Shown here one piece after another: positions 15,243-59,941 of a DNA stretch of 64,000 nt. A program made the translations under genes and the position numbers. The notes below the pieces were generated by a model. That model was given only the letters and a program-made list of their open reading frames with translations, did no database searches and was not told where the DNA came from. The stretch covers positions 249,529 to 313,528 of the forward strand of contig CANLMI010000002.1 of the NCBI GenBank assembly GCA_947492375.1, given 5' to 3'. The first letter of the stretch is position 1. Each line of letters starts with the position of its first letter. Source of the stretch: an uncultured Kordiimonas sp. Lineage in GTDB: Bacteria; Pseudomonadota; Alphaproteobacteria; Sphingomonadales; Kordiimonadaceae.

Positions 15243-15264
15243 TCATTCAATGATATAAACAAAA

Positions 15265-43063: not shown

Positions 43064-45139
43064 ATGACTAACTTAGGTGAATGGGGTAAAGATACGTCAC
43101 CAATGCATTCGGGCGAACGTGAAGCTCAAGCAAAACTTGGCCGTGAAGAGCAAATGGAAAAGATTGGCCGCTCTGTTATCAGACCATATATGCCAGAACA
43201 GCACCGAGAGTTTTTTAATCAATTACCGTTTGTTGTGGCTGGAAGTGTTGATAAAGATGGCTGGCCTTGGGCTTCTATATTATTTGGCGAACCTGGCTTC
43301 ATAACAACCCCAACTGATCGCAAGTTAGTTTTTAACGCAGCCCCCACACACGGCGATCCATTATTGGAAAATATCACTAAAGACGCTCCAATTGGTCTTC
43401 TGGGCATTGAATTATCAAATCGTCGTCGTAACAGAATGAACGGATTGATTGAAATAATGGAAGACGGCAAATTCGCCGTTAATGTAATTCAATCATTCGG
43501 GAATTGCCCTCAATACATTCAAACTCGTTCTACAAACTTTATTCGCGACCCCAAAATTCCATATGTAGCTACCCAAGAAAAGTTTGACACGTTTGACCAG
43601 CCTGCAATTAACCTGATTGAACATTCAGATACTTTCTTTGTCGCAAGCCACAATAACCGTGACAACACCCATGACACAGGCGGCGTTGATGTCAGCCACA
43701 GAGGTGGGCAGCCTGGCTTTGTAAAAATAGAAGGCAATAGCCTTACAATCCCTGATTTCATTGGTAATTTTATTTTCAACACTTTTGGAAACTTTATACT
43801 TAACCCAAAAGCCGGAATAATTTTTGTTGATTTTGAAACAGGTGACCTACTCATGCTTACAGGCACCGTCGAAATTATCTGGGACAAGACACCCGAAATC
43901 GAGGCATTCAAAGGCGCCGAACGGGCATGGAAGTTCACATTGGATCATGGTATTCGCCTGAAAGACGCTAGCCCTTTTAGGTGGTCCTTTGATGAAACAT
44001 CACCAAACACACTACAAACCGGAAATTGGACTGAAGCAAAGACATTGCTTGAAACAGAAAAGTTACGCAAATCATGGCTACCATATCCGGTAAACCGCAT
44101 TGTCGACGAAAGCGAGACAATTCGGTCATTTTACCTCGAACCATCAAGCGAATACGCTCTATTCAAGCATCAGCCTGGTCAATATTTAACCATACGAATA
44201 CAGCCTTATGATAAAGATACTCCCTTAATTCGCACATACACACTATCATCAGCACCGTCTGATCCAATGTACCGGCTATCAATCAAGCGTGACGGGGAAG
44301 TCTCAAAATTCTTACACAATAATATTAAACCGGGTGACATAATAGAAGGGCGTGCCCCACTTGGTGACTTTGTGCTCAATTGCGAAGAAAAGCGCCCTGC
44401 GGTTTTGATCGGCGCGGGCGTTGGTATAACACCAATGATTTCAATGACACGGCAAGCCATCAATGAAGGTATCAGCAAACGCCGTATCCGTCCCCTCACA
44501 ATAATTCATAGTGTACGCACAGTCGCAGAAAGACCATTTTGCAATGAATTTGCGAAACTTGTTGATGAGGCAAAAGGCAAAGTCAACTATATATCACTCG
44601 TCAGTCAACCCGAAGAAACTGCCAAAGAAGGGATAGATTATGACAAATGCGGACGGATCACACCGCAAGCTCTACAACAATATCTGGCAATCGACGATTA
44701 TGATTTTTATCTTTGTGGCCCGAACGGCTTTATGCAAGCAACATATGATATGTTACGCGACCTTGGTGTAAACGACGTCCGCATATTTGCAGAAGCTTTT
44801 GGCCCATCAGCACTGAAACGTCGCATAGATACTGGTCTAGTTTCTGACACCGGGCATATCGCGCAAGAAGCGGAAAATGCAATCGTCACATTTACAAAAG
44901 CCAAATTCGAGCAACCATGGACACCCGATCAAGGAACACTCTTAGAATTCGCAGAAAGCCACGGATTAACACCTGCGTCAGGGTGTAGGTCGGGTGGTTG
45001 TGGAAGCTGTGCTATACGCCTGAATTCAGGGAAAATCGTATATCGAACACAACCAAAATTTGATCCCGAAGAAGGGGAAGTTTTAATTTGTTGCGCAGTG
45101 CCTGCCGCAGATAGCGAAGCTATAGAACTAGACCTGTAA
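43064..45139 (+). CDS. PNPOx-like flavin domain fused to ferredoxin-NAD(P)H reductase and 2Fe-2S ferredoxin
   Basis: A 691-aa three-part protein. Residues about 45-310 are a pyridoxamine-phosphate-oxidase-like split barrel (FVVAGSVDKDGWPWASILFG, PKAGIIFVDFETGDLLMLTG). Residues about 330-570 are an FAD/NAD reductase (RTYTLSSAP, GAGVGITPMISM, YDFYLCGPNGFMQATYDML). Residues about 600-691 are a plant-type ferredoxin with cysteines C-x4-C-x2-C in ASGCRSGGCGSCAIR and a fourth in LICCAVP. Electrons would pass from NAD(P)H through FAD to the 2Fe-2S centre, with the N-terminal flavin or heme-like pocket as a further acceptor. The substrate is unknown. Confidence 0.88.
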   Translation: MTNLGEWGKDTSPMHSGEREAQAKLGREEQMEKIGRSVIRPYMPEQHREFFNQLPFVVAGSVDKDGWPWASILFGEPGFITTPTDRKLVFNAAPTHGDPLLENITKDAPIGLLGIELSNRRRNRMNGLIEIMEDGKFAVNVIQSFGNCPQYIQTRSTNFIRDPKIPYVATQEKFDTFDQPAINLIEHSDTFFVASHNNRDNTHDTGGVDVSHRGGQPGFVKIEGNSLTIPDFIGNFIFNTFGNFILNPKAGIIFVDFETGDLLMLTGTVEIIWDKTPEIEAFKGAERAWKFTLDHGIRLKDASPFRWSFDETSPNTLQTGNWTEAKTLLETEKLRKSWLPYPVNRIVDESETIRSFYLEPSSEYALFKHQPGQYLTIRIQPYDKDTPLIRTYTLSSAPSDPMYRLSIKRDGEVSKFLHNNIKPGDIIEGRAPLGDFVLNCEEKRPAVLIGAGVGITPMISMTRQAINEGISKRRIRPLTIIHSVRTVAERPFCNEFAKLVDEAKGKVNYISLVSQPEETAKEGIDYDKCGRITPQALQQYLAIDDYDFYLCGPNGFMQATYDMLRDLGVNDVRIFAEAFGPSALKRRIDTGLVSDTGHIAQEAENAIVTFTKAKFEQPWTPDQGTLLEFAESHGLTPASGCRSGGCGSCAIRLNSGKIVYRTQPKFDPEEGEVLICCAVPAADSEAIELDL

Positions 45140-45296
45140 TAAAATATCAATTGATAGCAGTACCTTTAGAAATGATTAAAAACATACACGTTTGGCATTG
45201 CTAAATGTGCCTTACTCCATGCAATGAAATTTCTTCTCGACCGATCAGGATACTTCTTTTTTACACCCACAATCTATCGGGAAAATCATACTGCTA

Positions 45297-47006
45297 TTAT
45301 ATTTTGCTATGCTCACTTTGCCTGAATAGAAATAGCCAAGCCATAACATTAGCTATAACTAAAGCGCCTATTATTAGGAAAAAGCCTGTGCCAAATTCGC
45401 CGCTCGCGATACCTATAGGGGAAAACAACACATAGGTTCCAACAACGGCTGATAAAAGAGTGAATGTAACAGGGCGGCCAAAACGCCAAGGTGTCAAGTC
45501 AACGACGTCCCGTCGTTTAAAAGTCCAAGGGTTTGACATAGGCTGAACACGTCCAGCCACGAGCATTATAGCAACCTCAATACCGAACAAAATCGCATAT
45601 AAATGCAGGAAATGTATTGTAACGATATCATCAAATACAAATTTCAAAAGTCCATAAGCGATAACATGAAAAATTATAACAATCTTTGCCCCAAGCGCAG
45701 GAACATAATTTGTAAACAAACCAACAATCACAATGGCAACAATGGGAATATTATAAAAACCCGTAAAAATCCGAATAATTTGCCAAAGTCCCTCGGGGGC
45801 AAAAAACAATAATGGAGCCACGATAAATGAAAAAATGGCAGTGATAACACTAACAATCATTGCAACCTTGACCGTTTGCTTTTCGCTAACCTTTCCCCCT
45901 TTAAGCGGTGTATAAATATCCATACAAAAAAGAGTGGCAGCACTATTCAAAAGTGAATTGAACGAACTAAAAACAGCCCCTAACAAAACCGCCAGAAAGA
46001 AACCCATAAGCCACGTTGGAAACAAATCCCTGATCAATTGAGGGTATGCAAGGTCTATCGAGGCTAATCCCGGGCCATACAAATGATAAGCAATCACCCC
46101 CGGCAGCATCATAAAAAATGGAACTAGCAGTTTCAGAAAACCAGAAAGTAAAACACCTTTTTGCCCTTCTGCAAGGTTTCGTGCAGCAAGTGTGCGTTGA
46201 ATCACATACTGGTTAGTACACCAATAAAATAAATTGGCCATCACCATACCGGTAAAAATAGTCCCAAATGGCGTTGGGTCGCTTGCACCCCCAATTGCAT
46301 TTAATTTTTCAGGATGAACCGTTGTTATTGTTTTTAATCCAGCAAGAATATCACCGCTTCCAAGCGCATAAAGCCCAAGTGTGGGAACCAGCGCACCAAC
46401 AACAAGCAAACCAACACCGTTTAATGTATCGGAAACCGCAACTGCTTTCAGCCCGCCAAAGATTGCATAAACTGATCCAATACTTCCAATAATCAAGATC
46501 GTGATTACCAGTGCTTCAAATTGGGTAACACCCAACAATGCAGGCACATCAAAGAGCTTAATAACCGCAATTGAACCTGAGTATAAAACCGATGGGATCG
46601 TCACCAAACCGTACCCAAGCATAAACAAAACAAGGGCCATCTGTTGTACTTGTGGGTCAAAGCGGTCTCGTAAGAATTCAGGAAGCGTTGTAAAAGCACC
46701 AGCAAGATAACGCGGAAGGAAAATCATTGCCATAGCTACGGTTGAAACAGCGGCGGTCACTTCCCAAGCCATACTTGAGAAATTAAATCCGTATGCGGAA
46801 CCATTCAGCCCTATAAGCTGTTCTGCCGATAAATTAGTAAGCAATAATGAGCCGGCAATAAACAATCCACCCAAGTTACGGCCAGCAAGAAAATATCCAT
46901 CTTTGGAGTCAACACTGCCCTTGGTCATTGCATATGAGACCCAGGCTACAAACGCCATCAAAGCTACGCATGTCACAAGTGTAAGCATTAGCTCAGTGTC
47001 AGTCAC
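45297..47006 (-). CDS. Sodium:solute symporter (SGLT-like), probable sulfoquinovose/sulfo-sugar importer
   Basis: A 569-aa SLC5-type symporter with about 14 helices. Motifs of the sugar branch are readable: LLTNLSAEQLIGLNGSAYGF, YAIFGGLKAVAVSDTLNGV, and NQYVIQRTLAARNLAEGQKG. The last is characteristic of SGLT-like members. It starts with GTG, preceded by GGGGAG. It is the fourth gene of the leftward monooxygenase operon, 57 nt after the flavin reductase. A sugar-type importer next to a sulfonate monooxygenase and an aldo/keto reductase points to uptake of a sulfonated sugar; this substrate is inferred. Confidence 0.85.
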   Translation of the reverse strand: MTDTELMLTLVTCVALMAFVAWVSYAMTKGSVDSKDGYFLAGRNLGGLFIAGSLLLTNLSAEQLIGLNGSAYGFNFSSMAWEVTAAVSTVAMAMIFLPRYLAGAFTTLPEFLRDRFDPQVQQMALVLFMLGYGLVTIPSVLYSGSIAVIKLFDVPALLGVTQFEALVITILIIGSIGSVYAIFGGLKAVAVSDTLNGVGLLVVGALVPTLGLYALGSGDILAGLKTITTVHPEKLNAIGGASDPTPFGTIFTGMVMANLFYWCTNQYVIQRTLAARNLAEGQKGVLLSGFLKLLVPFFMMLPGVIAYHLYGPGLASIDLAYPQLIRDLFPTWLMGFFLAVLLGAVFSSFNSLLNSAATLFCMDIYTPLKGGKVSEKQTVKVAMIVSVITAIFSFIVAPLLFFAPEGLWQIIRIFTGFYNIPIVAIVIVGLFTNYVPALGAKIVIIFHVIAYGLLKFVFDDIVTIHFLHLYAILFGIEVAIMLVAGRVQPMSNPWTFKRRDVVDLTPWRFGRPVTFTLLSAVVGTYVLFSPIGIASGEFGTGFFLIIGALVIANVMAWLFLFRQSEHSKI

Positions 47007-47063
47007 TTATTTCTCCCCAAGTTCATCAACCTATTGCCCAAGGTTATTGCTCCATGGCAATTA

Positions 47064-47573
47064 TTATGATTGGCGCGGCGATACCCCTATGACACCATTT
47101 TGAAATATTAACGCGTCCCCGTCTCGTTCTTGTACACGTTCTACCTTGCCAACAATTATCGTATGATCACCAGCATCGTGCAGGGCCGTTCGCTCGCATT
47201 CAAAAACAGCCAAACAGCCCTGTATAATGGGCACAGAAAATTCGTTACCCAACGCGGCAACACCCTTAAAGTTACTCATGTGTTTAACAAAAGTATCGCA
47301 AACTATTCTCTGATCAGATGAAAGCACATGAACTGCAAAGTGCTTCGCCTCGACAAAATAGTCATGCCTGCCAGAATCTTTCGCCGGCGCCCACATAATT
47401 AAGGCAGGATCAAGTGATAAGCTAGTAAAGCTATTTACTGTTATACCAATCGGGCCTTCACTGCCCACTGCCGTCACAACAGCTATACCGGTTGCAAATC
47501 GGCCGAGTGCTTTTCTATACGCTTTGTGATCCATAACAGGTGTAAAACTTGATGCGTTCGGAGACACCGACAT
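47064..47573 (-). CDS. Flavin reductase supplying FMNH2 to the monooxygenase (SmoA-like)
   Basis: A 169-aa flavin reductase-domain protein (YRKALGRFATGIAVVTAVG, PIGITVNSFTSLSLDPALIM, HDAGDHTIIVGKVERVQ). Two-component flavin monooxygenases need such a partner. The ATG is 1 nt after the aldo/keto reductase stop, and the monooxygenase gene is next in the same operon. In the oxidative sulfoquinovose pathway of Agrobacterium, a reductase, an aldo/keto reductase and a monooxygenase (SmoA, SmoB, SmoC) occur together. The longer frame to 47666 overlaps the neighbour and is rejected. Confidence 0.85.
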   Translation of the reverse strand: MSVSPNASSFTPVMDHKAYRKALGRFATGIAVVTAVGSEGPIGITVNSFTSLSLDPALIMWAPAKDSGRHDYFVEAKHFAVHVLSSDQRIVCDTFVKHMSNFKGVAALGNEFSVPIIQGCLAVFECERTALHDAGDHTIIVGKVERVQERDGDALIFQNGVIGVSPRQS

Positions 47574-47574
47574 A

Positions 47575-48471
47575 TCAAGGCACCTCTTTACCGATTGCTG
47601 CGGTGTATAGTTCGAACCAAGTTTGTCGGTCCATTTCAATTTCAGTTGCTTTACTGAAAGTCGCAATTCTTTCCAGACGGTTTGTTCCCATTACCGGAAT
47701 AATCGAAGCCGGGTGCGCGAGTAACCATGCAACAGCGACAGAGGCCACATCCGTTTCATACCTAGCCGCAACATCATTTATCACCTTGATCAGTTCCTGA
47801 TTAGAGCCATCAAATAGCCCCCCTCCCCCAAGAGGAGACCAAGCCATAGGCGGTATATTTCTCTCTTGTAAATACGCAATATCACCATTTGTGAAAGCGT
47901 CAGGCGCCGTTAAACTGATCTCTATCTGATTTGTGACCAGTTTTGAGGTCATTGCGCTAGAAAGCAACGACCAATCATGCGGTTTAAAATTAGAAACCCC
48001 AACAGCCTTCACCTTACCTGAGGCTATCATTTCATCAAGAGCCTTGCCAGTTTCACCATGGTCCATAAAAGGGTCAGGGCGGTGAATAAGCAATAAATCG
48101 ATTTGCTCTATCTTCATTAAACGAAGCGAATGTTCCACAGACGAAACAATATGTTTCCGGCTGGTATCATAATATTTCACACGCCGGTCAGAATACCGCC
48201 CAATAGGGGCGACAATATCGCATTTAGTAACAATCTCAAGCTTCTCACGAAGCCCAGGAGCAGAAGCGAAGCAATTACCCAATAATTCTTCAGCCTCATA
48301 TCCGCCGTAAATATCAGCCTGATCAATTGTGGTAATATTCTGTGCTAAACAGGCTTCAATCTTGGCCTGAATATGCGCAGGCGATGTATCTGCATCATCG
48401 CCAACACGCCACATACCATATACTATTTCAGAAAATTCCAAATTCTCAGAAAGCTTTATACGCTCTACCAT
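47575..48471 (-). CDS. Aldo/keto reductase (SmoB-like, candidate 6-oxo-glucose reductase)
   Basis: A 298-aa AKR barrel. Catalytic Asp and Tyr appear in TTIDQADIYGGYEAEELLG, the Lys in KLEIVTKCDIV and the His in LLIHRPDP. The C-terminal cofactor region is SIIPVMGTNRLERI. In the sulfo-SMO pathway such an enzyme reduces 6-oxo-glucose, released by desulfonation of sulfoquinovose, to glucose. Its position directly between monooxygenase and flavin reductase matches. Start 48471 is set by AAGGAAG; the longer frame overlaps the monooxygenase. Confidence 0.87.
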   Translation of the reverse strand: MVERIKLSENLEFSEIVYGMWRVGDDADTSPAHIQAKIEACLAQNITTIDQADIYGGYEAEELLGNCFASAPGLREKLEIVTKCDIVAPIGRYSDRRVKYYDTSRKHIVSSVEHSLRLMKIEQIDLLLIHRPDPFMDHGETGKALDEMIASGKVKAVGVSNFKPHDWSLLSSAMTSKLVTNQIEISLTAPDAFTNGDIAYLQERNIPPMAWSPLGGGGLFDGSNQELIKVINDVAARYETDVASVAVAWLLAHPASIIPVMGTNRLERIATFSKATEIEMDRQTWFELYTAAIGKEVP

Positions 48472-48481
48472 TACTACTTCC

Positions 48482-49636
48482 TTAAACTCGTTCACCAACA
48501 CCCAGAGGCGTATCAGGTATAGACGCCGGCACTCTGCCATAAGCTTCTGGCAAAGAACAGGTTTTTAAGCTTGGCATTACTCTTGAGCCAAAGCTTTTAC
48601 ATTCATCAATATGAGGATAGCCTGAGAGAATAAATGCTTTAATTCCCATTTTTTGATAGTTTTCCAACTCAGACAGTACCTGATCTGTTGACCCAACAAT
48701 GGCAGCACCGCACCCAGAACGCGCCCGTCCAACACCCGTCCATAAATGGGGTTCCACGTACCCGAATTTATCGGCAAGTTCACGCGCTTTGGCCTGATGT
48801 GATACCCCAAGACTAATACTGTCGTGGGCCCGGTCACGGATCAGCTGGCCATACTCATCATCAAGTTTACTTACAATATAATCCGCATATTCTCTGGCTT
48901 CTTGCTCTGTATCTCGGACGATCACATGTGCTCTTAAACCATAGTCTATGGTACGATTATACTTCTCAGCAACTGCATGCACCGCTTTCATACGATCCGC
49001 CAAATTTTCCTTTGTTTCTGGCCACATCAAATAAACATCACAATGCTCGCCGCACAGGTCAAGCGCTGCGGGTGAATATCCACCAAAATATAATAGTGGC
49101 CCACCAGACTGATATGGCTTTGCCGGACCTGCCGGAACCTTTTCATAATGATAAACTTCACCCTCAAGTGTAATTTCATCCTGTGTCCAGGCCTGCTTTA
49201 AAATCTGTACGACTTCACGGGACCTCTGATAGCGATAATTGCTGTCAGCAACTTCCCCTGGAAAATCAGAACTTATGACATTAAGTGTCAGGCGCCCCTT
49301 CATCATATGGTCTAATGTTGCAACAGTGCGTGCCAGCATAATTGGTTGCATTTCGCCGCAGCGAATAGCTGCCAACATATTTATTTTCGATGTTAAGGGA
49401 GCGCACCCAGCAACAAAACTTAATGTGTCTTGCCCCACTTGATATGAACTCGGGCACAGAATATTCCTAAACCCCTGCTGTTCAGCTTCCAGCAAAATAT
49501 CCCGACAGTGCTCCCAACTTGATCTAAGGTTGCCATCAGGCACCCCTAAAAATTCATAATCATCTGAACAAAGTGCTGAAAACCAGGCGATTTCGATAGA
49601 ATCCAGATCAGCAGATTTTATTGGAACAACTGTCAT
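48482..49636 (-). CDS. LLM-class flavin-dependent monooxygenase, candidate sulfoquinovose monooxygenase (SmoC-like)
   Basis: A 384-aa TIM-barrel protein of the alkanesulfonate monooxygenase type. Motifs include FRNILCPSSYQVGQDTLSF, AAIRCGEMQPIMLARTVATL, GRLTLNVISSDFPGE, YRYQRSREVVQILKQAW and PLLYFGGYSPAALDLCGEHC. It should use FMNH2 and O2 to cleave a C-S bond, releasing sulfite and an aldehyde. The neighbours (flavin reductase, aldo/keto reductase, sugar symporter, sulfite dehydrogenase, sulfate exporter) strongly support a sulfonated sugar substrate. It is the first gene of the leftward operon, divergent from the GntR regulator. Confidence 0.87.
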   Translation of the reverse strand: MTVVPIKSADLDSIEIAWFSALCSDDYEFLGVPDGNLRSSWEHCRDILLEAEQQGFRNILCPSSYQVGQDTLSFVAGCAPLTSKINMLAAIRCGEMQPIMLARTVATLDHMMKGRLTLNVISSDFPGEVADSNYRYQRSREVVQILKQAWTQDEITLEGEVYHYEKVPAGPAKPYQSGGPLLYFGGYSPAALDLCGEHCDVYLMWPETKENLADRMKAVHAVAEKYNRTIDYGLRAHVIVRDTEQEAREYADYIVSKLDDEYGQLIRDRAHDSISLGVSHQAKARELADKFGYVEPHLWTGVGRARSGCGAAIVGSTDQVLSELENYQKMGIKAFILSGYPHIDECKSFGSRVMPSLKTCSLPEAYGRVPASIPDTPLGVGERV

Positions 49637-49689
49637 TTGGCACCCCTTGACCTAAGTAAAGATAGGGTTTGCTTATCATGTCTTTTTGT

Positions 49690-49710
49690 GTATATCAATA
49701 GTATATCAAT
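49690..49710. promoter_or_regulatory. Direct repeat GTATATCAAT x2 in the divergent promoter, candidate GntR operator
   Basis: GTATATCAAT occurs at 49690-49699 and 49701-49710, an 11-bp period that places both copies on one helix face. It lies in the 96-nt gap between the divergent monooxygenase and GntR genes, 23 nt before the GntR start. A regulator encoded next to its operator is the usual arrangement. Confidence 0.5.
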
Positions 49711-49732
49711 TTTATAAACAGGATTTTCAGTT

Positions 49733-50431
49733 ATGTCACGTCAAAGTATTTTGACGAAGCATGCGCAGCTTAGCGAAATGCTAATCAGAGAAATTATTTC
49801 AGGTCACATACAAGATGGCTCGCGCTTGCCGTCAGAGCGCCAAATGGCTACTGAGCTTGATGTTGCTGTCGGAACACTTAGAAAAGCACTGGCTATTTTA
49901 GAAAAAAAAGGACTTCTGGAGCGCATTCAAGGCTCAGGTAATTATGTCAGGCATCGTAATGATGTAACAAGCATATACTCATTTTTCCGGCTTGAACTTC
50001 TGGGCGGCGGTGGCTTACCTACCGCAAAGGTCTTAAACGTTTCTAAGCTAATGAAACCCCATGATGCTCCTTTTTTCGGAGACTCAGCTTATGGCCACTG
50101 TATTAAAAGGTTAAGGTTTCTTAATGACCAACCTATTGCAATAGAAGAAATATGGCTGGACACCAGGTTTACAGACAAAATAACAGCGATAGACCTTAGC
50201 GATTCGCTTTACCTGTATTATAAAGAAAACCTAAATTTGATAATTTCACGTGTTCAAGACCTAGTAAGCGTAAATAATATACCAGATTGGTGCCCGTTAG
50301 AATCGCAAATGACATATGGGGATACTGTCGGTTATATTGAACGCACCAGCTGGGATCAGGAAGGCCACCCAGCAGAGTTTTCAAAAACATGGTTTAATCC
50401 TAAAATTGCGCATTATACCGCGCGCCTTTAA
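49733..50431 (+). CDS. GntR-family (HutC-type, UTRA domain) transcriptional regulator
   Basis: A 232-aa repressor-type protein. The winged HTH spans about residues 10-75 (SGHIQDGSRLPSERQMATEL, VGTLRKALAILEKKGLLER, IQGSGNYV). The UTRA ligand-binding domain follows (APFFGDSAYGHCIKRLRFL, PIAIEEIWLDTRF, YIERTSWDQEGHPAEFSKTW). It probably senses a sugar or sulfo-sugar inducer and controls the divergent operons. AGGA lies 8 nt before the ATG. The next gene starts 13 nt downstream. Confidence 0.9.
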   Translation: MSRQSILTKHAQLSEMLIREIISGHIQDGSRLPSERQMATELDVAVGTLRKALAILEKKGLLERIQGSGNYVRHRNDVTSIYSFFRLELLGGGGLPTAKVLNVSKLMKPHDAPFFGDSAYGHCIKRLRFLNDQPIAIEEIWLDTRFTDKITAIDLSDSLYLYYKENLNLIISRVQDLVSVNNIPDWCPLESQMTYGDTVGYIERTSWDQEGHPAEFSKTWFNPKIAHYTARL

Positions 50432-50444
50432 GTGAGACTAAAAT

Positions 50445-51548
50445 ATGAACAACAAAAAATATGGTATCATTGGATGCGGCATGATGGGTATAGAACACAT
50501 CAAGAATATCGCCTTGCTGGACGGCGCAGAAGTAAACGCAGTATTCGATCCAGTTAGTACATTAGCGGCAGAGGCTGCAAACCTTGCAGGAGGTGCGCAT
50601 ATTGCCCCAACATTTGACGCAATGATCGAAGACGAAACGCTGGACGCATTAGTTATCGTCAGCCCAAATTTTCTCCATGTTGACCAGTTAGAAGCGATTT
50701 ACAATGCGCGCTCTATTCCGGTTCTTTGTGAAAAACCACTTTTTACAGACCCCAATGATGAAGCCCGGGTGCAAAACCTCATACAAACCTGTTCTGAAAG
50801 AATTTGGGTTGCTATGGAATATCGCTATATGCCTCCAATAAAAGCACTGAGAGAAGAAGCATACGGCGTTACTGACAAGATCGAACTGTTAACCATTAGA
50901 GAACATAGATTTCCATTTCTTGAAAAAATAGGCGACTGGAACCGTTTTAATGAAAACACGGGCGGTACAATGGTCGAAAAATGCTGCCATTTCTTCGATC
51001 TCATGCGATTATTGCTGGGCGCTGAACCCGTGCGAGTATCCGCAAGCGCTGGCCAAATCGCCAATCACCTGGATGAAAAATATGATGGACGCACTCCTGA
51101 TATATGGGATGGTGGCTATGTAATATTTGATTTTGATAACGGCGCGCGCGCAATGTTGGAATTATGCATGTTTGCCGACGGGTCAAAATGGCAGGAAGAG
51201 ATCACAGCTATCGGTCGCAAAGGTAAAATTGAATGCCGCCTACCGGGGCCGCACAGGTTTTGGCCGCACAATATAGGACCACAACCAGAGCCCGAGGTAT
51301 CTATACACCCCCGCCACCCCATAAACCCGACAACACGTACGATCAAAATCGACGAAACCCTCTTGAAAGCAGGAGACCATCATGGGTCAACTTTTTACCA
51401 ACATCAACGTTTCCTTGAGGTGGTCAGAGGGATAACCAAACCAGAAGTTTCATTAAGTGACGGCCATATTGCCGTTATAATGGGGCTAGCAGCCCAGCGT
51501 GCGGCATCTGAAAAACGTGTCGTGGAACTTTCTGAATTTAAACAATAA
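50445..51548 (+). CDS. Gfo/Idh/MocA-family NAD-dependent protein, candidate sulfoquinovosidase
   Basis: A 367-aa protein with an N-terminal Rossmann fold (KYGIIGCGMMGIEHIKNIAL) and the family EKP motif (VLCEKPLF). The C-terminal alpha/beta domain includes NTGGTMVEKCCHFFDLMRLL and a late DHHGSTFYQHQRFLEVV. Ordinary members are sugar dehydrogenases. An NAD-dependent glycosidase branch that hydrolyses sulfoquinovosides (SqgA, GH188) has been described in sulfoquinovose gene clusters. No other glycosidase is present in this cluster, so this gene is the best candidate for releasing sulfoquinovose from its glycosides. Sugar dehydrogenase is the alternative. Confidence 0.8.
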   Translation: MNNKKYGIIGCGMMGIEHIKNIALLDGAEVNAVFDPVSTLAAEAANLAGGAHIAPTFDAMIEDETLDALVIVSPNFLHVDQLEAIYNARSIPVLCEKPLFTDPNDEARVQNLIQTCSERIWVAMEYRYMPPIKALREEAYGVTDKIELLTIREHRFPFLEKIGDWNRFNENTGGTMVEKCCHFFDLMRLLLGAEPVRVSASAGQIANHLDEKYDGRTPDIWDGGYVIFDFDNGARAMLELCMFADGSKWQEEITAIGRKGKIECRLPGPHRFWPHNIGPQPEPEVSIHPRHPINPTTRTIKIDETLLKAGDHHGSTFYQHQRFLEVVRGITKPEVSLSDGHIAVIMGLAAQRAASEKRVVELSEFKQ

Positions 51549-51579
51549 AACTGTTGCTAAATAATTAAGAGCCAAACAC

Positions 51580-52596
51580 ATGGTTTTCAAAACGGTCAGC
51601 CGTAAATTCAATGATATATATAGCGGGATTATACTCGCTGGTATTATGGCCCTTGCCGCACGTTATGTCGCCGAACATTACGGTGCCCCTGCTATGCTTA
51701 TGGCGCTCTTATTTGGCATGTCGATCAGCTCCTTAAGCTGCGAGAAAACAGCAGTTTCTGAGGGTATTCAATTTACAGCCAGTCATATTTTAAAACTCGG
51801 CATTATCTTGTTGGGGAGCCGAATAAGCGCAGATATTATCACTATCCTTGGCTGGAAAACCATAACACTCATTGTAACCGCAATGCTGGGAACACTTATT
51901 TTTGGGTATATAATAGGTAAAAGCTTGGGCCGAACAGCAGGCTTTGCCATTTTAACTGCTGGTGCAGTGTCAATCTGCGGCGCATCAGCCGCTATTGCAA
52001 TCTCCAGCATATTACCACCAGACAAGGATAATGACCGAAACCTCTTATTCACTATTCTCTGCGTTACGATACTTTCAACAATAGCGATGATTGCCTATCC
52101 GGTGCTGATGGACGGGGTTGCCCCCTCAGAAATTGAAGCCGGTATCTTCATCGGCGCAACCATACACGATGTTGCACAGGTAATAGGAGCAGGCTTTTCG
52201 GTCTCTGACGAAGTTGGCGAAACTGCAACATTGGTAAAACTGATGCGCGTTTCCTTATTAGTGCCTGTTGTTATCGGCATTTCTATTCTCTTTCGAACAC
52301 AAAAATCTGATATTCCTGCAAATACAGTCAAATCAAATCGGCCAGTTTTTCCTATCTTCATACTAGGTTTCATTGCGCTTGCCACACTGAATAGCTTGGC
52401 TTTACTGCCTGAATATATAGTCGAATTTATGAATGAACTTTCATCATGGGCACTCCTAACCGCAATTGTTGCAGCAGGTGCTAAAACCAACCTTAAAGAA
52501 ATCTTGGCTTTTGGATATATACCCATCTTATTGCTTATATTAGAAACCTTATTCTTGGCTGCTATCGTTATAGCGGGGCTAGTTATCTGGTACTAA
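51580..52596 (+). CDS. YeiH-type putative sulfate/sulfite exporter
   Basis: A 338-aa polytopic protein with about 9-10 helices. Family motifs include LKLGIILLGSRISADII, LTAGAVSICGASAAIA, IGATIHDVAQVIGAGFSV and a C-terminal AIVAAGAKTNLKEIL. The family (UPF0324/PSE) is predicted to export sulfate or related anions. In this cluster it would remove sulfite or sulfate produced by desulfonation. It follows the Gfo/Idh gene by 31 nt in the same direction. Confidence 0.87.
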   Translation: MVFKTVSRKFNDIYSGIILAGIMALAARYVAEHYGAPAMLMALLFGMSISSLSCEKTAVSEGIQFTASHILKLGIILLGSRISADIITILGWKTITLIVTAMLGTLIFGYIIGKSLGRTAGFAILTAGAVSICGASAAIAISSILPPDKDNDRNLLFTILCVTILSTIAMIAYPVLMDGVAPSEIEAGIFIGATIHDVAQVIGAGFSVSDEVGETATLVKLMRVSLLVPVVIGISILFRTQKSDIPANTVKSNRPVFPIFILGFIALATLNSLALLPEYIVEFMNELSSWALLTAIVAAGAKTNLKEILAFGYIPILLLILETLFLAAIVIAGLVIWY

Positions 52597-52885
52597 TGCG
52601 AGCATTTGACCTCACATTACCCGATACATCACCTTGCCTGTAAACTTCAATTGATCCCCTGTTTCGTTTCAGAGCAAGTGCCAATTACAAACATTTAACC
52701 ACTTGAAAGTAAATATTAAAAATACTTCCTGCATCAAATTGAAATAATACCCATTTCATGATTGATATACAATTCATTCATTTAAGTAGACGTTCATAAA
52801 ATGCTTTGTCATAGTTGTGATATCCAAATGTTGACTGCTGCAACTCTATTATAATGCTGCATCACTTTTAGAGGAGGGGAATTTA

Positions 52886-55393
52886 ATGAACAAAACACTT
52901 GTTTCATCAACAAGCTTAATAGCGCTTGCCTTAGGCTTATCGGTCCAAGCCCACGCTCAAGACACACAAGATAACGACGATGGCTGGGAACTAGAAGAAA
53001 TCATCGTTACAGCACAGAAAACAGAGCAAAGCCTTCAGGATGTTCCGACGGCTGTTTCTGTGTTAAGTGCAGATGCAATCGAAAAGGCTTTTCCCAGCAA
53101 TAATCTGGAAAGCTTAACAACTTTAATACCCTCGGTTAGTTTCCGAAAAGGTTCAACTAATGCAAACTCTGCTATTACCATCCGCGGGATTGGTACAATT
53201 TCATTTTCAGACGCCGCTGAACCAAGTGTCGCAACAGTTGTTGACGGTGTTGTTCTAGGGCGCTCGGGCCAAGCATTTGGCGATCTGTATGATATTGCCC
53301 GTATTGAAGTATTACGCGGCCCTCAAGGCACTCTATTTGGAAAAAATGCATCAGCAGGTGTTGTTAATATCGTAACACTTGAACCAAATCAGGAAGAACT
53401 GGAAGGCTATATTTCCGCATCATACTTTGAAGACCAGGAATATCGCCTCAAAGGTAGAGTGTCCGGACCTATCACTGATACAGTCGCAGCCAGCCTTACC
53501 GTTAGCCGTAGTGAATTTGATGGCTTCATTAGAAACCTTGCCAACAATCGTGATGTCAATGGCTATGATCGTTGGGGCGGCCGGGCACAAGTCCTATGGC
53601 AACCTGACGACAGTTTCAGAGCATTATTCACCTACGAGCATAACGAAACAGACGATGATTGCTGTGCAGACATTCCTGCCTTAGCGGCAAATAATGGCAG
53701 GTTTGCAGATTCACTTGCACCTCCCGGAGGGCAAGGCATTGTATCAAACGGTAACGAGCGTCCTATCGCTGATATTCAACTCGATACTCGCGTTATTGAT
53801 CAAGATTTTGAAACACGTACCATCAATAATTTTGATGCTTTCTCAATCAATTTGGAAAAAGAAGCATTTGGCGGCCATATCCTAACCTCAATTACATCTT
53901 TCCGCGAATGGTCAAATACTGAATTCCGTGAAGGTGATTTTACATCAACAGGCGGGCAATCGGACCAGTCGGTATTTGGTGTCCCGTTTCTTCTTCATGA
54001 TGTCGGAACACGCGATAATAGCCAGTTCAGTCAGGAACTCAGAATACAGGCACCTGAAGACTCTGCCATCAATTATCAACTAGGCGCTTATTATTTTGAC
54101 CTTCAGATTGAGTCAGACTTTACACGCGAAGCAAGCTGCCAAAACAATGGCGGTCAAAACCAACCTATTCTGGATGCGAACCCGGGCCTAACCTGTAATG
54201 CTAACGATATCGTATCAGCAACCAACTTTGCATTTGTAGATTTTGACAACTTTGCCCTATTTGGACAGGCTGATTACGATATAATCGAAGGCCTGAATAT
54301 TTTTGCGGGTGCGCGCTGGACAAGAGATGAGGTTTCTTTTGTTAACAGCCGCGTCAATAATGACCCGTTCGGGCGCCAAGGTGTTGGTGTGCGACCTGAT
54401 TTACCAAACAGCCAATTTGGCTTTGGCTCTGGTGGGTTCGCTGTTCCCAATACCAATGTTCCAACCGGCGAATTAGATGCCGATGGTAATCCAATATTAA
54501 TTAGTGTTCCTGCGTTTTCAGGTGAGACAACAGAGAATGACTTTTCTGTTCGTGCCGGTTTACTGGCTGACCTGGGCCAGCTGTTTGAAGCAGACGAAAA
54601 CTACGGGAGTATATATTTTACCTACGCACAAGGCTATAAAGGTCCTGCGTTCAATGTATTCTTTAACCAAGGTGTAAATGATACTGTTCCAATCGGCCCT
54701 GAAACTTCTGATCATTTTGAAATCGGCTATAAATATGCTGGATCGCGCCTTGCATTTAATCTTGCCCTTTATCACACAGATATATCGGGTTTTCAGGCAA
54801 ACTCATTTGATAACTCAACGGGCGTTACCATTACGCGGCTTACAAACGCTGGTGATGTGCGCACGCAAGGTATTGAATTTGATGCAAGTTGGGCAGTGCA
54901 CGAATACTTAACCGTTTCAGGATCATTCGCCTTAAACGATGCTGAAATTGTGGCTTTTAATTCTCCGATTGATCCCACCACTGGACAGCCTGAGTTTCCA
55001 GACGGCGTATTCAGCGGCGTAGATTTGTTATTCTCACCGGATTTCAACTGGAATATCGGCGGTGACTTCCATTACCCGGTTAATGATGAGTTAGAGCTGA
55101 ACATTACAACGACTTTCTCACATGTGGATGAACAAGAAAGCTTCCTGCCAGGTGGCAATCCTGACCCAACTATCAATCCGTTTCCTCTTCCTGCCCAAGG
55201 TTTGCTACCGGATTATAATCTATGGAACTGGACTGTGGGCGTGACTTACAAAGAAAAATACTCCTTAACGGTTATTGTTAATAACCTGTTGGACGAATCT
55301 TTTGTAACGACCAACTCAGGTGATGTATTTAGATTCCAAATTCCACGTGAAGCAGACAGATATTTCGGGGTAAACTTCCGCGCAGACTTTTAG
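52886..55393 (+). CDS. TonB-dependent outer-membrane receptor
   Basis: An 835-aa receptor with a signal peptide (SLIALALGLSVQAHAQ). A TonB-box-like segment (LEEIIVTAQKTEQSL) and a plug domain follow (DVPTAVSVLSADAIEK, ITIRGIGT, IEVLRGPQGTLFGKNASAGVV). A 22-strand barrel ends YFGVNFRADF with the terminal Phe. The strong ribosome-binding site GAGGAGGGGA precedes the ATG. Position between the sulfo-sugar genes and sulfite dehydrogenase suggests uptake of a glycoside such as sulfoquinovosyl glycerol; this is inference, since the barrel gives no substrate. Confidence 0.93.
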   Translation: MNKTLVSSTSLIALALGLSVQAHAQDTQDNDDGWELEEIIVTAQKTEQSLQDVPTAVSVLSADAIEKAFPSNNLESLTTLIPSVSFRKGSTNANSAITIRGIGTISFSDAAEPSVATVVDGVVLGRSGQAFGDLYDIARIEVLRGPQGTLFGKNASAGVVNIVTLEPNQEELEGYISASYFEDQEYRLKGRVSGPITDTVAASLTVSRSEFDGFIRNLANNRDVNGYDRWGGRAQVLWQPDDSFRALFTYEHNETDDDCCADIPALAANNGRFADSLAPPGGQGIVSNGNERPIADIQLDTRVIDQDFETRTINNFDAFSINLEKEAFGGHILTSITSFREWSNTEFREGDFTSTGGQSDQSVFGVPFLLHDVGTRDNSQFSQELRIQAPEDSAINYQLGAYYFDLQIESDFTREASCQNNGGQNQPILDANPGLTCNANDIVSATNFAFVDFDNFALFGQADYDIIEGLNIFAGARWTRDEVSFVNSRVNNDPFGRQGVGVRPDLPNSQFGFGSGGFAVPNTNVPTGELDADGNPILISVPAFSGETTENDFSVRAGLLADLGQLFEADENYGSIYFTYAQGYKGPAFNVFFNQGVNDTVPIGPETSDHFEIGYKYAGSRLAFNLALYHTDISGFQANSFDNSTGVTITRLTNAGDVRTQGIEFDASWAVHEYLTVSGSFALNDAEIVAFNSPIDPTTGQPEFPDGVFSGVDLLFSPDFNWNIGGDFHYPVNDELELNITTTFSHVDEQESFLPGGNPDPTINPFPLPAQGLLPDYNLWNWTVGVTYKEKYSLTVIVNNLLDESFVTTNSGDVFRFQIPREADRYFGVNFRADF

Positions 55394-55425
55394 GGTGGCG
55401 AATACGAATAACCACTAAATATTTT

Positions 55426-55459
55426 AAAAGACTTGTAAATATTGTTTTATGAGTCTTTT
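55426..55459 (+). terminator. Probable terminator after the TonB-dependent receptor
   Basis: AAAAGACT (55426-55433) pairs with AGTCTTTT (55452-55459), followed by further T residues. The loop is long (18 nt), so efficiency is uncertain. It starts 33 nt after the stop. Confidence 0.55.
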
Positions 55460-55501
55460 TTATTTTCAAAGCTTCTCTAACTCAGAAAAGAAAACATAGA
55501 C

Positions 55502-56713
55502 ATGCCGACAAATCATAGCAGAAGACATTTCATGGCATCAATGGGAGCTGCGAGCGCTCTATTACCCGCCTCCTCTTTGCTGGCAGACGCTATATATAGC
55601 CAACAAGGGGAAACCATTGACCCGGCGCAATCCAAACCTGGCCTAACCCTTTTAGGGGACCGACCAGTCAACATGGAAACACCGCCACACCTGCTGGATG
55701 ATGATATCACGCCCTCAGAGCGATTATTTGTACGCAACAATGGCCTGCTTCCCGACGAAAAAGATATAAACATTCACGATTGGACACTTGAAATAGACGG
55801 CGAAGTAGAAAACCCGCTTTCCCTGTCTATTAATGACCTGAAGTCGCAATTTAAAGTTGTCACAAAACGCATGGTTATAGAATGCGGCGGCAATGGCAGG
55901 CGCTTTTTCACTCCGGGCGCATCAGGCAATCAATGGACATTTGGCGCTGTTGGCTGCCCAGAATGGACCGGCGTTAGGCTGCGCGATGTTCTAAACGCTG
56001 CCAAACTCAAACCAAGCGCCGTTTATACAGGGCATTACGGTGCTGATATTCACCTTTCTGGCGACCCGGAAAAAGCACCTTTGTCCCGCGGGGTACCAAT
56101 ATCAAAGGCTATCGAAGAACATTCGATGATTGTTTGGGCGATGAACGGTGAAGACCTTCCGCTTCTTAACGGCTATCCTTTACGTCTTATCATCCCCGGT
56201 TGGCCCGGCTCTTGCTCACAGAAGTGGCTGACACGTATCTGGGTCCGCGACCAGATACACGATGGCCCCAAGATGGGCGGAAAATCATATCGGGTTCCCG
56301 CATACCCTGTCCCGCCAGGTACCAAAGTGCCAGATGAAGATATGAAAATTATCGAAAGTATGCCGGTAAAGTCACTGATTACCTATCCTAAAACAGGCAC
56401 AAAAATAAACCGCGCAGAAACTACAACCATTCGCGGCCACGCTTGGGCCGGCGATATTGCAGTTCAATCCGTTGATATTTCGCTGAACTTTGGTGCAACA
56501 TGGATTCCCACCAAACTTTCCCCCGCTGTTAACAAGTATGCATGGCAACGTTGGAGCGTGGAAATCCCTCCTCTTCATCAAGCTGGTTACTATGAAATAT
56601 GGGCGCGGGCTACCGATAATAACGGGGTTGCTCAACCCCCAACAACACCGGGATGGAATCCAAAGGGATACCTCAATAATATGCAACACCGTATCGCAAT
56701 GTTTGCTCTATAA
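55502..56713 (+). CDS. sorA: Tat-exported sulfite dehydrogenase molybdopterin subunit (SorA-like)
   Basis: A 403-aa molybdoenzyme of the sulfite oxidase family. It has a Tat signal (SRRHFMASMGAASALLPA). The molybdenum-ligand Cys128 is in MVIECGGNGR. The pterin-binding segments include PLLNGYPLRLIIPGWPG, and a C-terminal Mo-co dimerisation domain follows (IRGHAWAGDIAVQSVDISL). It oxidises periplasmic sulfite to sulfate and passes electrons to the cytochrome encoded next. In this cluster the sulfite comes from the monooxygenase. Confidence 0.92.
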   Translation: MPTNHSRRHFMASMGAASALLPASSLLADAIYSQQGETIDPAQSKPGLTLLGDRPVNMETPPHLLDDDITPSERLFVRNNGLLPDEKDINIHDWTLEIDGEVENPLSLSINDLKSQFKVVTKRMVIECGGNGRRFFTPGASGNQWTFGAVGCPEWTGVRLRDVLNAAKLKPSAVYTGHYGADIHLSGDPEKAPLSRGVPISKAIEEHSMIVWAMNGEDLPLLNGYPLRLIIPGWPGSCSQKWLTRIWVRDQIHDGPKMGGKSYRVPAYPVPPGTKVPDEDMKIIESMPVKSLITYPKTGTKINRAETTTIRGHAWAGDIAVQSVDISLNFGATWIPTKLSPAVNKYAWQRWSVEIPPLHQAGYYEIWARATDNNGVAQPPTTPGWNPKGYLNNMQHRIAMFAL

Positions 56714-56743
56714 CCCCTTAACCTCAGATGAGGAACAATTGTT

Positions 56744-57226
56744 GTGAAACTATATTTAGTGTCAGTTATTATAAGTCTCATCCTTATTAGCGCTTGCTCT
56801 GAGAAAAATAGCACGTCTATTAATAAAAAAACCGGTAAACACCCGGCACCAACAACAGAGCAGCTCTCGGCTCAACAATTTGCGCGCATAAAAAAAATTG
56901 CTGATACCTGGCAATCTCAACCGCTATATTCGGTCCCGTACGATACAATCGACCCCAACATTAGCGTCAGTATAGAAGCAGCTAGTTCCAGATTTAATCC
57001 AGATGATGAATACTGGGGGCTTCCGCGCGATAATGGAACGGAAGAGTTAGTCGCTGCATATTGTAGCGCTTGTCATAGCCTCAGAATAGTTATGCAACAA
57101 CATGCGTCTCAGTCTCGTTGGGACGAACTTCTCAACTGGATGGTAGAAAAACAAAATATGCCCCCTCTCGAAACAGAAGACCGCGACCATATATTAAATT
57201 ACCTAGCTAAACATTTTTCCAACTAG
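56744..57226 (+). CDS. sorB: Cytochrome c lipoprotein subunit of sulfite dehydrogenase (SorB-like)
   Basis: A 160-aa lipoprotein with lipobox LISAC (Cys18) and one heme c site, AYCSACHSL (Cys107, Cys110, His111). A likely axial Met is in KQNMPPLETEDR. It starts with GTG, preceded by GAGGA, 30 nt after the SorA stop, so the two form an operon. It accepts electrons from the molybdenum centre and passes them to the respiratory chain. Confidence 0.88.
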   Translation: MKLYLVSVIISLILISACSEKNSTSINKKTGKHPAPTTEQLSAQQFARIKKIADTWQSQPLYSVPYDTIDPNISVSIEAASSRFNPDDEYWGLPRDNGTEELVAAYCSACHSLRIVMQQHASQSRWDELLNWMVEKQNMPPLETEDRDHILNYLAKHFSN

Positions 57227-57375
57227 TAATATCCTTCAGATACTGAAAATTTAGATATGTAAATATTTTGAACATTGAGTAAATTTATTCTTAATATTCC
57301 ACCTGCATTCAGCGCTCTACCTTAAGACACGAGAGCACCAAGAATATACGGTTTCTCAGACTAACGGGGTTACAT

Positions 57376-57945
57376 ATGCCACAATTCCCACCCGTCATTA
57401 TCTTAGCAGGCGGTAAAAGCGAACGCTTCGGCGTTCAAGATAAAGCAACAGCAAAACTGAACGGTCTTGCTCTTATTAACCACATGATCAGCCGGTTAAA
57501 GTTACAAACCAATACAATATGTATTTCTGGTTCCAAGGCCTATGGAGCAAATCTTACGGTCATTCCAGACACGCAAGCTTTCAACGGACCCGCAGCCGCC
57601 TTACATGCTATCGCAGAGCATTTTCAAGACATACAATATTTTATAACCGTCCCTGTCGATGCACCGTTTATCCCAAATGACTTAGTACCAACTTTACAAG
57701 CGCACGGCCCAACTACAATCGCCAAAACACAAGAGGACATCCATCCAACAGTAGGTATTTGGTCTACCGATACATTACGCCAATATTTTTCCAGCCTCGA
57801 CACAGGGGCAAACCCTTCACTTCGAAAAATCGCAGAGGTCTGTAATTGCACCTATGCTGATTTCCCTAACGCAGGCCAATTCCTTAATATAAATTCTAAA
57901 GCCGATTTAAAATTAGCAGAGAGCTATTTATCAAAGAGCCAATAA
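57376..57945 (+). CDS. mobA: Molybdenum cofactor guanylyltransferase MobA
   Basis: A 189-aa nucleotidyltransferase. The GTP-binding start is PVIILAGGKSERFGVQDKAT, with VIPDTQAFNGPAAALHAIAE and the metal site VPVDAPFIPNDLV. It converts Mo-MPT to the MGD form. Its location between two molybdoenzyme loci is meaningful mainly for the nitrate reductase, which needs bis-MGD; SorA uses the non-guanylylated cofactor. It is convergent with the nasS gene. Confidence 0.9.
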   Translation: MPQFPPVIILAGGKSERFGVQDKATAKLNGLALINHMISRLKLQTNTICISGSKAYGANLTVIPDTQAFNGPAAALHAIAEHFQDIQYFITVPVDAPFIPNDLVPTLQAHGPTTIAKTQEDIHPTVGIWSTDTLRQYFSSLDTGANPSLRKIAEVCNCTYADFPNAGQFLNINSKADLKLAESYLSKSQ

Positions 57946-57967
57946 GGTTAACTCGCCAACCATAACT

Positions 57968-59233: not shown

Positions 59234-59844
59234 TACAATCCCCCTTCACCATCGAAAAGGCTTGCAACTTCGAGCATACTTTCAGCAATTTCCTTAATGG
59301 TTTTGCTTTGCTTCATTGCCATTTTTCGCATTGCAACATACGCGTCATTTTCAGACAAGCTTCGCTTTTGCATCAAAAGGCCTTTAGCCCTCTCAATAAC
59401 TTTACGCGCCTCAAGGTCTGCTTTCGACTTTTCGAGATCTTGCCAGAGCGCATTGAACATTTTGAAGCGCTCAATTGCGATTTCAAGCACTGGCAAAACC
59501 CGCTCGCGTGAGAGGCCATCCACGATATAGCTACTAACACCAGCCCTCACCGCTTCCTTTGCGAGAGCACCATCACCTTTTTCAACAAACATCACAATTG
59601 GTCGGGGATTATTGCGCGCAACAATTTGCAAGTTCTCAATCGTATCCCGTTCAGGGCTTTCGCAATCAATTATGATTGCGTCAGGTTGGGATCGTTCAAT
59701 TTTGTCTAAAAGGTCGGCACCGGATTTCAGTGCAACATGTTGCACAACCGCAGCGCCCTGAAGCCCTGCTTCTACAATTTTAGCGCGCTCCATATTGCTA
59801 TCAAGCAACAAGACAAACAATGGTGGTTCATTCAGGATATTCAT
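59233..59844 (-). CDS. nasT: NasT-type ANTAR antiterminator response regulator
   Basis: A 203-aa protein. The receiver-like domain spans about 1-120 (FVLLLDSNMERAKIVEAGL, DAIIIDCESPERDTIENL). A C-terminal ANTAR RNA-binding domain follows (ARKVIERAKGLLMQKRSLSE, with NDAYVAMRKMAMKQ). It would bind a two-hairpin leader RNA upstream of the nitrite/nitrate reductase operon and prevent termination. That leader is outside the window to the right. The start at ATG 59844 is preferred; a TTG at 59883 would extend it by 13 residues. Confidence 0.9.
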   Translation of the reverse strand: MNILNEPPLFVLLLDSNMERAKIVEAGLQGAAVVQHVALKSGADLLDKIERSQPDAIIIDCESPERDTIENLQIVARNNPRPIVMFVEKGDGALAKEAVRAGVSSYIVDGLSRERVLPVLEIAIERFKMFNALWQDLEKSKADLEARKVIERAKGLLMQKRSLSENDAYVAMRKMAMKQSKTIKEIAESMLEVASLFDGEGGL

Positions 59845-59941
59845 GTCAGTATCAAAACTAGAGTTAGAGCCTATGTTAATCAAATTATCTTAGAGGCAAT
59901 TGCGTGACTTTCCAGATGTTTCTTTAATTCTGTTTGCCGCA

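Follow-up and report, generated by a model that had tools for sequence, protein, structure and literature searches.

A Kordiimonas sulfo-SMO island with a candidate TonB receptor and SGLT-type symporter for sulfoquinovose uptake

The sulfosugar sulfoquinovose (SQ) is produced at about 10 billion tons per year (PMC10755693). It is the sugar component of sulfolipids in plants and algae. Agrobacterium converts SQ into glucose and sulfite by the sulfo-SMO (sulfo-ASMO) pathway, with the proteins SmoA, SmoB and SmoC. The Agrobacterium cluster also encodes an ABC importer and a GH31 sulfoquinovosidase. GH188 sulfoquinovosidases have been reported in sulfo-SMO clusters and are near-universal in Roseobacters (Kaur et al. 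2023, PMC10755693), and the pairing of GH188 with sulfo-SMO genes is therefore already known. Related systems are the sphingomonad-type sulfo-SMO clusters of Novosphingobium, which use SquD, and the sulfo-SDO (sulfo-ASDO) pathway of Marinobacterium, which uses SqoD. The open literature says little about how SQ or SQ-glycerol passes the outer membrane. The main text of a 2026 review (PMC12890257) contains neither 'outer membrane' nor 'porin', that of a 2022 review (PMC9594981) has no 'porin', and 'TonB' is absent from the main texts of both and of PMC13372026 and PMC12421959. Among open articles on SQ together with TonB, symporter or SGLT, none is about SQ uptake by its title and the opening of its abstract, the subscription Agrobacterium and Novosphingobium originals lying outside this scope. 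Here we describe a ten-gene island in a 64,000-nucleotide stretch of DNA (the window) from an uncultured Kordiimonas sp., which very probably encodes a sulfo-SMO pathway with an import route of its own. The pathway is known; the TonB-dependent receptor and the SGLT-type symporter are, by genomic association only, strong candidates for new SQ importers.

The identities of SmoC, SmoB and the sulfoquinovosidase SqgA are established at the level of sequence. The monooxygenase is 77.3% and 75.2% identical to the proteins of PDB entries 7olf and 7oh2, whereas it is 31.5% and 30.9% identical to two SsuDs, and SsuD structures score at most 186 bits (Table 1). We take 7olf and 7oh2 to be SmoC structures and 7bbz, the match of the aldo/keto reductase (AKR), to be a SmoB structure; these entries bear generic names in the PDB. 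A tree of 115 rows, built like all trees here by a quick method with SH-aLRT support only, places the window monooxygenase inside the SmoC branch (support 100), together with both solved SmoCs. The phylogenetic test proposed in an earlier note on this DNA thus places the enzyme with SmoC and not with SsuD. It reaches 232 bits with the SsuD model TIGR03565, for which the cut-off is 518, and the cut-off, the tree and the identities together rule out an SsuD. The nearest rows are those of G058, a genome of the same genus, and of metagenome-assembled genomes (MAGs) of Parvularcula and Henriciella (G-numbers denote genomes and L-numbers fetched loci). The window and these three are grouped with support 99 and are the only SmoC-type loci in the sample seen with the symporter. 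The genome itself contains one SmoC match and one SorA match at E 0.001. The smoC and smoB genes are adjacent, and sulfo-SMO clusters have been delimited by the presence of both within a 10-ORF (open reading frame) stretch (PMC13372026). The flavin reductase that would partner SmoC is recognized by a family match only. It is very improbable that the enzyme set acts on a sulfonate other than SQ, such as alkanesulfonate, methanesulfonate or another sulfosugar. Enzymes of the LLM monooxygenase family are broad, and 7olf and 7oh2 were deposited as 'Methanesulfonate sulfonatase' and 'Alkanesulfonate monooxygenase', but the identities and the SsuD score given above, the 66% identity of SmoB and the adjoining GH188 gene with its SQ sulfonate triad all argue for SQ.

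The Gfo/Idh/MocA protein, whose family the earlier note recognized while missing its function, is, as judged from its structure matches and active site, a GH188 NAD+-dependent sulfoquinovosidase. It matches 8zn9 better than the SqgA structures 8qc3 and 8qc2 and is 47% identical to ArSqgA. The active-site residues of GH188, including the sulfonate site Arg166, Leu170 and Lys172, were defined by Kaur et al. (2023, PMC10755693), and this sulfonate triad is present in 96–98% of GH188 sequences (PMC11465081). The window SqgA keeps Lys107, Tyr136, Arg166, Leu170, Lys172, Glu189, His193 and His321 (ArSqgA numbering), as well as the catalytic-site Glu (position 164 in the numbering used here, 163 in the paper), nine of nine residues. 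An inositol-dehydrogenase role was dropped in favor of GH188 on the structure matches and these residues.

The island is a mosaic: its enzymes and regulator are of Roseobacter type, its symporter occurs in a small lineage of SmoC, and its receptor resembles those in the apparent SQ clusters of the host family. With Agrobacterium, as far as reviews describe that cluster, it has SmoC, SmoB, the flavin reductase and the chemistry in common; it lacks the ABC importer and the GH31 sulfoquinovosidase and has instead GH188, the symporter, the TonB receptor, and YeiH-type and SorAB-like genes. The arrangement of gntR and sqgA divergent from smoC, smoB and smoA is that of Roseobacter-type loci with GH188, and it recurs in most of the best 80 SmoC contig loci that we surveyed. 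The importers of these loci differ from those of the island. Among the 73 loci that extend 4 kb or more downstream of smoC (L008 from Parvularcula is too short to be counted), 52 have a TRAP importer, one has the symporter (L002, Henriciella) and 20 have neither. The symporter is present in two of the 80 loci, L002 and L008, and additionally in G058. A YeiH relative adjoins GH188 only in L008 (51% identity), and L030 has a 40% match farther away. The flanks of the 80 loci yielded no SorA match and a single receptor match, that of L002 (31%), which groups with control receptors and was rejected as an SQ receptor. L002 has SmoC, the symporter, GntR and GH188 at 7288–13026, with an SDR gene adjoining GH188, and no SmoB or SmoA match was found in this 21-kb locus. 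Sphingomonad-type clusters carry a TonB receptor from the family of the island receptor and often also a YeiH-family gene, and some have SorA, but their SquD is about 50% identical to SmoC, they have LacI rather than GntR, an MFS importer is common, and the sulfoquinovosidase is commonly GH31 and in others GH188. With sulfo-SDO the island is linked through its receptor, as described below; no TauD-like dioxygenase was seen in the island. The earlier note had proposed that a TonB receptor and a symporter replace the ABC importer. A motif scan of window positions 42000–60000, the part of the genome searched for an ABC importer of SQ, found no ABC ATPase ORF, and both families are tied to SQ genes, so the proposal stands relative to Agrobacterium. 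It does not stand as a general claim: TRAP loci of the Roseobacter type are the nearer comparison, and the same kind of scan places an ABC ATPase near smoC in only eight of 55 long loci.

The association of the receptor family with SQ genes was examined in an order sample of 296 genomes, 55 of which have a SmoC/SquD-like match (E 1e-100) and 57 a receptor match (E 1e-95). Excluding the genome of the window, the receptor is present in 47 of 54 SmoC/SquD-positive and nine of 241 negative genomes (Fisher p = 1e-37, a value that ignores relatedness and is too strong because the genomes are related). The distance from the top receptor match to the SmoC/SquD gene is within 10 kb for 50 of 53 genomes and has a median of 5.3 kb; receptors that are fragmented or far from it were seen in G120 (on another contig), G232 (54 kb) and G267 (15 kb). 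At least one SQ-type enzyme marker is present in 58 of 61 fetched receptor loci and in 53 of the 56 picked on receptor similarity alone, and the marked loci span sulfo-SMO, apparent sulfo-SDO and sulfo-EMP-like clusters. Five of the markers (TauDsdo, AKRb, GH31b, SqIsom, SuyB) were derived from the receptor loci themselves, and three (SquD, AKRsq, GH31sq) from G038, which was found through its SmoC match, yet is also a receptor locus. With stricter markers only (SmoC-type LLM by window SmoC, YihQ-type GH31, GH188) the count is 50 of 56, five of which depend on distant GH188 homologues scoring 172–189 bits. In the three of these whose residues were checked (L135, L140 and L144, 28–29% identity), all nine active-site residues are kept. 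Six control loci with second-ranking receptors, from genomes already sampled, contain no SQ marker, and one has an MFS match. L143 (G269), left out of the 61-locus table, contains receptor, LLM, AKR, GH188-like and SorA genes.

The closest receptors, 54–60% identical by blastp, come from seven genomes of the same family without a SmoC match. Their neighbours encode a TauD-like dioxygenase, a TRAP importer and enzymes of GH188-like or GH31 type, and the window receptor groups with these receptors with support 100. With the nine residues kept in the GH188-like proteins of L135, L140 and L144, these look like sulfo-SDO clusters, whose TauD-like dioxygenases may be SqoD. GH31 enzymes occur within TauD-like clusters in L134 (11350–13437) and L142. 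The L134 enzyme scores 149 bits with YihQ (5aed) versus 366 with 5f7c, which does not support a YihQ sulfoquinovosidase; the two may possibly represent an unrecognised sulfoquinovosidase subgroup. In G031 the receptor adjoins an aldolase gene and a gene whose product is related to SQ isomerase (280 bits against a cut-off of 700). Eight of 37 plasmid records with a receptor match were examined, and SQ markers are present in six. In one of these, the small plasmid pZZM402 of Zymomonas mobilis (L217, 128–11361), the receptor relative is surrounded by genes for an aldolase, an epimerase, an isomerase, a GH188-like protein and a dehydrogenase, and the whole looks like a cluster of sulfo-EMP2 type.

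Several observations weigh against an SQ-specific receptor family that belongs to the island. Three of the 56 receptor loci have no SQ enzyme marker (L163, L184 and L185, the last a 3.6-kb contig with a TRAP gene), and the control receptor L199 is placed in the tree among outer family members, near the Zymomonas row. Two gammaproteobacterial relatives, on Azotobacter and Acinetobacter plasmids, have no SQ markers and stand next to an LLM enzyme of another kind. In G058, which has the symporter, SmoC, SmoB and GH188, no receptor match reached E 1e-60 among the 17 of 28 first-look candidates that were scored, and L008 has neither receptor nor SorAB adjoining its smo genes. Of 385 genomes in a class sample, each scored for two candidates, only that of the window reached E 1e-90, which indicates a patchy family. 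Up to 17 candidates per genome were scored in the first receptor survey and three in the survey at E 1e-95, and with such partial scoring these absences are not firm. In the two gammaproteobacterial plasmid loci (L214 and L215) the receptor relatives are 33–34% identical and an AKR gene also adjoins; the Azotobacter plasmid additionally carries genes for a sulfonate-binding protein and TonB-ExbBD. These receptors perhaps serve the uptake of another organosulfur compound.

An operator-like element may connect the two halves of the island. The sequence AAAATTGATACActATTGATgtAC precedes smoC in 74 of 74 loci tested, always in a single orientation. The operator matrix was built from these 74 of the 81 available non-window loci, leaving out L039, L056, L068, L069, L075, L076 and L077, and was not trained on the window. 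Its matches in the 64 kb rank 49697 first (score 23.8), 52853 second (17.3) and 52755 third (10.9), the latter two both inside the 289-bp gap upstream of the receptor gene. Among 100 random windows of similar composition, scores of at least 17 turn up 0.12 times and of at least 10 1.75 times per 64 kb, and the third match is therefore weak. A pattern written after both main sites had been viewed has two exact occurrences in the genome, which are those sites, and two one-mismatch places elsewhere. The second repeat is poor at 52853, and the recurrence of the smoC operator in weaker form before the receptor gene is consequently suggestive only. No matrix match of at least 9 was found upstream of the SorA-like gene at 55502. 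A fourth exact copy of ATTGATATAC, outside the island at 62687–62696 within a large molybdopterin gene, is probably due to chance.

The putative sulfite-disposal genes are named less certainly than the enzymes of SQ cleavage. The YeiH-family protein falls short of the TIGR00698 cut-off, while it matches Pfam PF03601, and the SorA-like and SorB-like proteins fall short of their NCBIfam cut-offs (Table 1); the SorA and YeiH names hold at the superfamily level only. The SorA-like protein has the molybdenum-binding and dimerisation domains of a SorAB-type enzyme, and a gene for a c-type cytochrome adjoins it. This last, 160-residue protein has no Pfam match, a weak SorB match and a CSACH haem-binding motif. 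Telling against the assignment, the SorA-like protein has Asn where 2blf aligns a His, which we take to be His57. SorA matches (E 1e-20) occur in 24 of the 55 SmoC/SquD genomes besides the window's own, and in 14 of the 24 they lie within 15 kb of SmoC/SquD. In G058, a SorA relative (67%) with SorB-like (43%) and YeiH-like genes lies about 177 kb from smoC, which further counts against a dedicated role. The opening letters of genes near it resemble, by eye, an aminotransferase and a sulfoacetaldehyde acetyltransferase. The simplest reading is that the SorAB/YeiH-like set is a general sulfite module. With no receptor match and a distant SorAB in G058, the receptor and SorAB would not be essential parts of the system. 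Whether they are chance neighbours, with the system confined to the divergent smo and sqgA operons and the receptor taking another ligand such as a siderophore, bears on the same data. The examples of G058 and L008, the 289-bp gap between yeiH and the receptor gene, the roughly 20 to 126 first-look receptor candidates in most examined genomes, and a top NCBIfam match to a siderophore subfamily, under its cut-off, would fit that explanation. We consider it quite unlikely, given the co-location of the receptor family over several cluster types with negative controls, the operator-like site and the proximity of SorA to SmoC/SquD in 14 of 24 genomes.

The symporter has an SSF domain and scores 703 bits with NF007790, over the cut-off of 401. 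It belongs to the family of vSGLT and YidK, and eight of the compared vSGLT positions are kept: Asn64, Glu68, Gln69, Glu88, Asn260, Tyr263, Trp264 and Lys294 (vSGLT numbering; the 3dh4 chain has Lys at 294 and the printed 2xq2 chain Ala). It differs from vSGLT in the replacement of Gln428 by Arg, Tyr87 by Trp and Ser91 by Ala. The symporter survey comprised 46 genomes (40 fetched for it, three, G000, G058 and G012, already sampled, and G045, G084 and G095 left out). In the order survey, Arg428 is present in all 27 fetched relatives at 61–72% identity, 19 of which come from a stretch that also encodes a TauD-like dioxygenase and GH188, and Gln428 in all 13 relatives at 38–44%, none of which has an SQ enzyme marker. 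The symporter of G012 (68%) has Arg428 and GH188-, AKR- and TauD-like neighbours; G012 and the genome of the window are the only two of 385 genomes of the class sample with a match at E 1e-150. Six of 35 plasmid records with a symporter match were examined. The Burkholderia and Paraburkholderia copies (49–50% identity) have Arg428 and adjoin a GH31 sulfoquinovosidase-type gene, and the annotated genes around the Burkholderia copy (lactonase, dehydrogenase, alpha-glucosidase, dehydratase and aldolase) resemble a sulfo-ED cluster. In L249 (G183), an Arg428 symporter is followed by YeiH-like and receptor-like genes (5565–15579), and the fetched stretch has no SQ enzyme marker.

A positive charge at position 428 may mark SGLT relatives that carry anionic sugars. 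Against this stand eight of the 27 Arg428 symporters, around which the fetched 18 kb show no SQ marker, and a copy on a Staphylococcus plasmid that has Arg428 and no recognisable SQ genes; the L008 symporter ends before position 428 and cannot be scored. These copies, and the possible common ancestry of all Arg428 forms, would suit a symporter for a neutral sugar (glucose or galactose) in which Arg428 is a mere marker of descent. That explanation is unlikely, since Arg428 recurs in the Burkholderia and Paraburkholderia copies beside GH31 sulfoquinovosidase-type genes, the Vibrio and Cetobacterium copies (40–43%), linked to galETK and an alpha-galactosidase gene, have Gln, and the E. coli YidK-type copy adjoining a sulfatase-like gene (L209, 5986–9191) has Lys.

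The co-location of both families with SQ genes is evident from the gene neighbourhoods, and from it we infer the importer ligands; the roles of Arg428, of the exporter and of sulfite oxidation, and the regulation, are likewise proposals. The TonB receptor would pass SQ-glycerol (or SQ) across the outer membrane, and the symporter would import it with sodium, Arg428 pairing with the sulfonate. SqgA would cleave the glycoside via transient C3 oxidation. SmoA would provide FMNH2 for SmoC, which is predicted to break the C–S bond to yield sulfite and 6-dehydroglucose, and SmoB would reduce the latter to glucose. The YeiH-family protein may export sulfite, and the SorA/SorB-like pair may carry out its periplasmic oxidation to sulfate. 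The GntR regulator would control the divergent operons and probably the receptor gene too. The variant of sulfo-SMO put forward in the earlier note is supported by the SmoC and SmoB matches, the tree and the associations of receptor and symporter, and is amended by the GH188 enzyme; the sulfite oxidation by SorAB and the link to algal sulfolipids that it proposed may hold as well.

The data further raise the prospect, for which we see an even chance, of a sulfosugar uptake system that is independent of the internal pathway. It would consist of a TonB receptor family for SQ glycosides, shared by sulfo-SMO, sulfo-SDO-like and sulfo-EMP-like clusters, and an SGLT branch turned to sulfonated sugars by the change of Gln428 to Arg, both joined in the window to a Roseobacter-type core under one GntR operator. 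If the assignments of receptor and symporter are true, they offer two pathway-independent transport markers for metagenomes and a one-residue test of the selectivity of SGLT-type symporters for an anionic sugar.

All ten genes of the island are present at 45297–57226, as first listed, and nine of the ten fall by Pfam into the families named in the earlier note (SSF, flavin reductase, AKR, LLM monooxygenase, GntR/UTRA, Gfo/Idh/MocA, YeiH, TonB receptor and sulfite-oxidase-type molybdenum protein). On the minus strand, smoC, smoB, smoA and the symporter gene follow in close succession, as seen from the letters at their junctions. On the plus strand, gntR, sqgA and the yeiH-family gene are succeeded by the receptor gene and the sulfite-dehydrogenase-like pair. 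The junction letters and the extent of the alignments indicate that smoB probably starts at 48471 and smoA at 47573, both inside the listed ORFs, which begin at 48540 and 47666, respectively.

Table 1. Features of the SQ island, in window coordinates, with the evidence for each assignment.
Feature	Position	Strand	Evidence
SGLT/YidK-type sodium:solute symporter, proposed SQ or SQ-glycerol importer	45297..47006	-	PF00474; NF007790; vSGLT match; Arg at vSGLT Gln428
SmoA-like flavin reductase	47064..47573	-	PF01613, 120 bits; relatives at equivalent place in most SmoC loci; junction letters
SmoB, predicted 6-dehydroglucose reductase (AKR)	47575..48471	-	437 bits and 66.2% identity to 7bbz
SmoC, predicted FMNH2-dependent SQ monooxygenase	48482..49636	-	698 and 677 bits to 7olf and 7oh2; tree
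Conserved operator-like element with AAAATTGATATACTATTGATATAC, between smoC and gntR	49690..49716	-	Top window match of 74-locus matrix; two exact ATTGATATAC
GntR/UTRA regulator	49733..50431	+	PF00392, PF07702; relatives divergent from smoC in survey loci
SqgA, predicted GH188 NAD+-dependent sulfoquinovosidase	50445..51548	+	456 bits to 8zn9, 345 to 8qc3, 331 to 8qc2; nine active-site residues kept
YeiH-family putative sulfite/sulfate exporter	51580..52596	+	PF03601; TIGR00698 132 bits, below cut-off 233; 51% relative in L008
Second-ranked operator-matrix match, ending 13 bases before receptor start codon	52853..52872	-	Matrix scan; genome-wide pattern count
TonB-dependent receptor, SQ-associated family	52886..55393	+	Plug and barrel domains; co-location surveys; tree
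SorA-like molybdenum sulfite dehydrogenase, twin-Arg-type signal	55502..56713	+	PF00174, PF03404; 2blf 178 bits; NCBIfam SorA 254 bits, cut-off 600
SorB-like c-type cytochrome, lipoprotein-type signal (CSACH)	56744..57226	+	NCBIfam SorB 29 bits, cut-off 93; 43% relative adjoining SorA in G058

The flanks of the island encode other functions. Window positions 43064–45139 encode a 691-residue protein with a C-terminal part like flavohemoproteins and NADH oxidoreductases and no family match above cut-off. The region 57376–63521 contains, besides two unclassified genes, a MobA-like gene (107 bits, cut-off 152), a gene for a uroporphyrinogen-III methyltransferase and that of a large molybdopterin enzyme, for which the nearest models are FdhA and NasC, with scores under both cut-offs. 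This region looks like a nitrate assimilation block.

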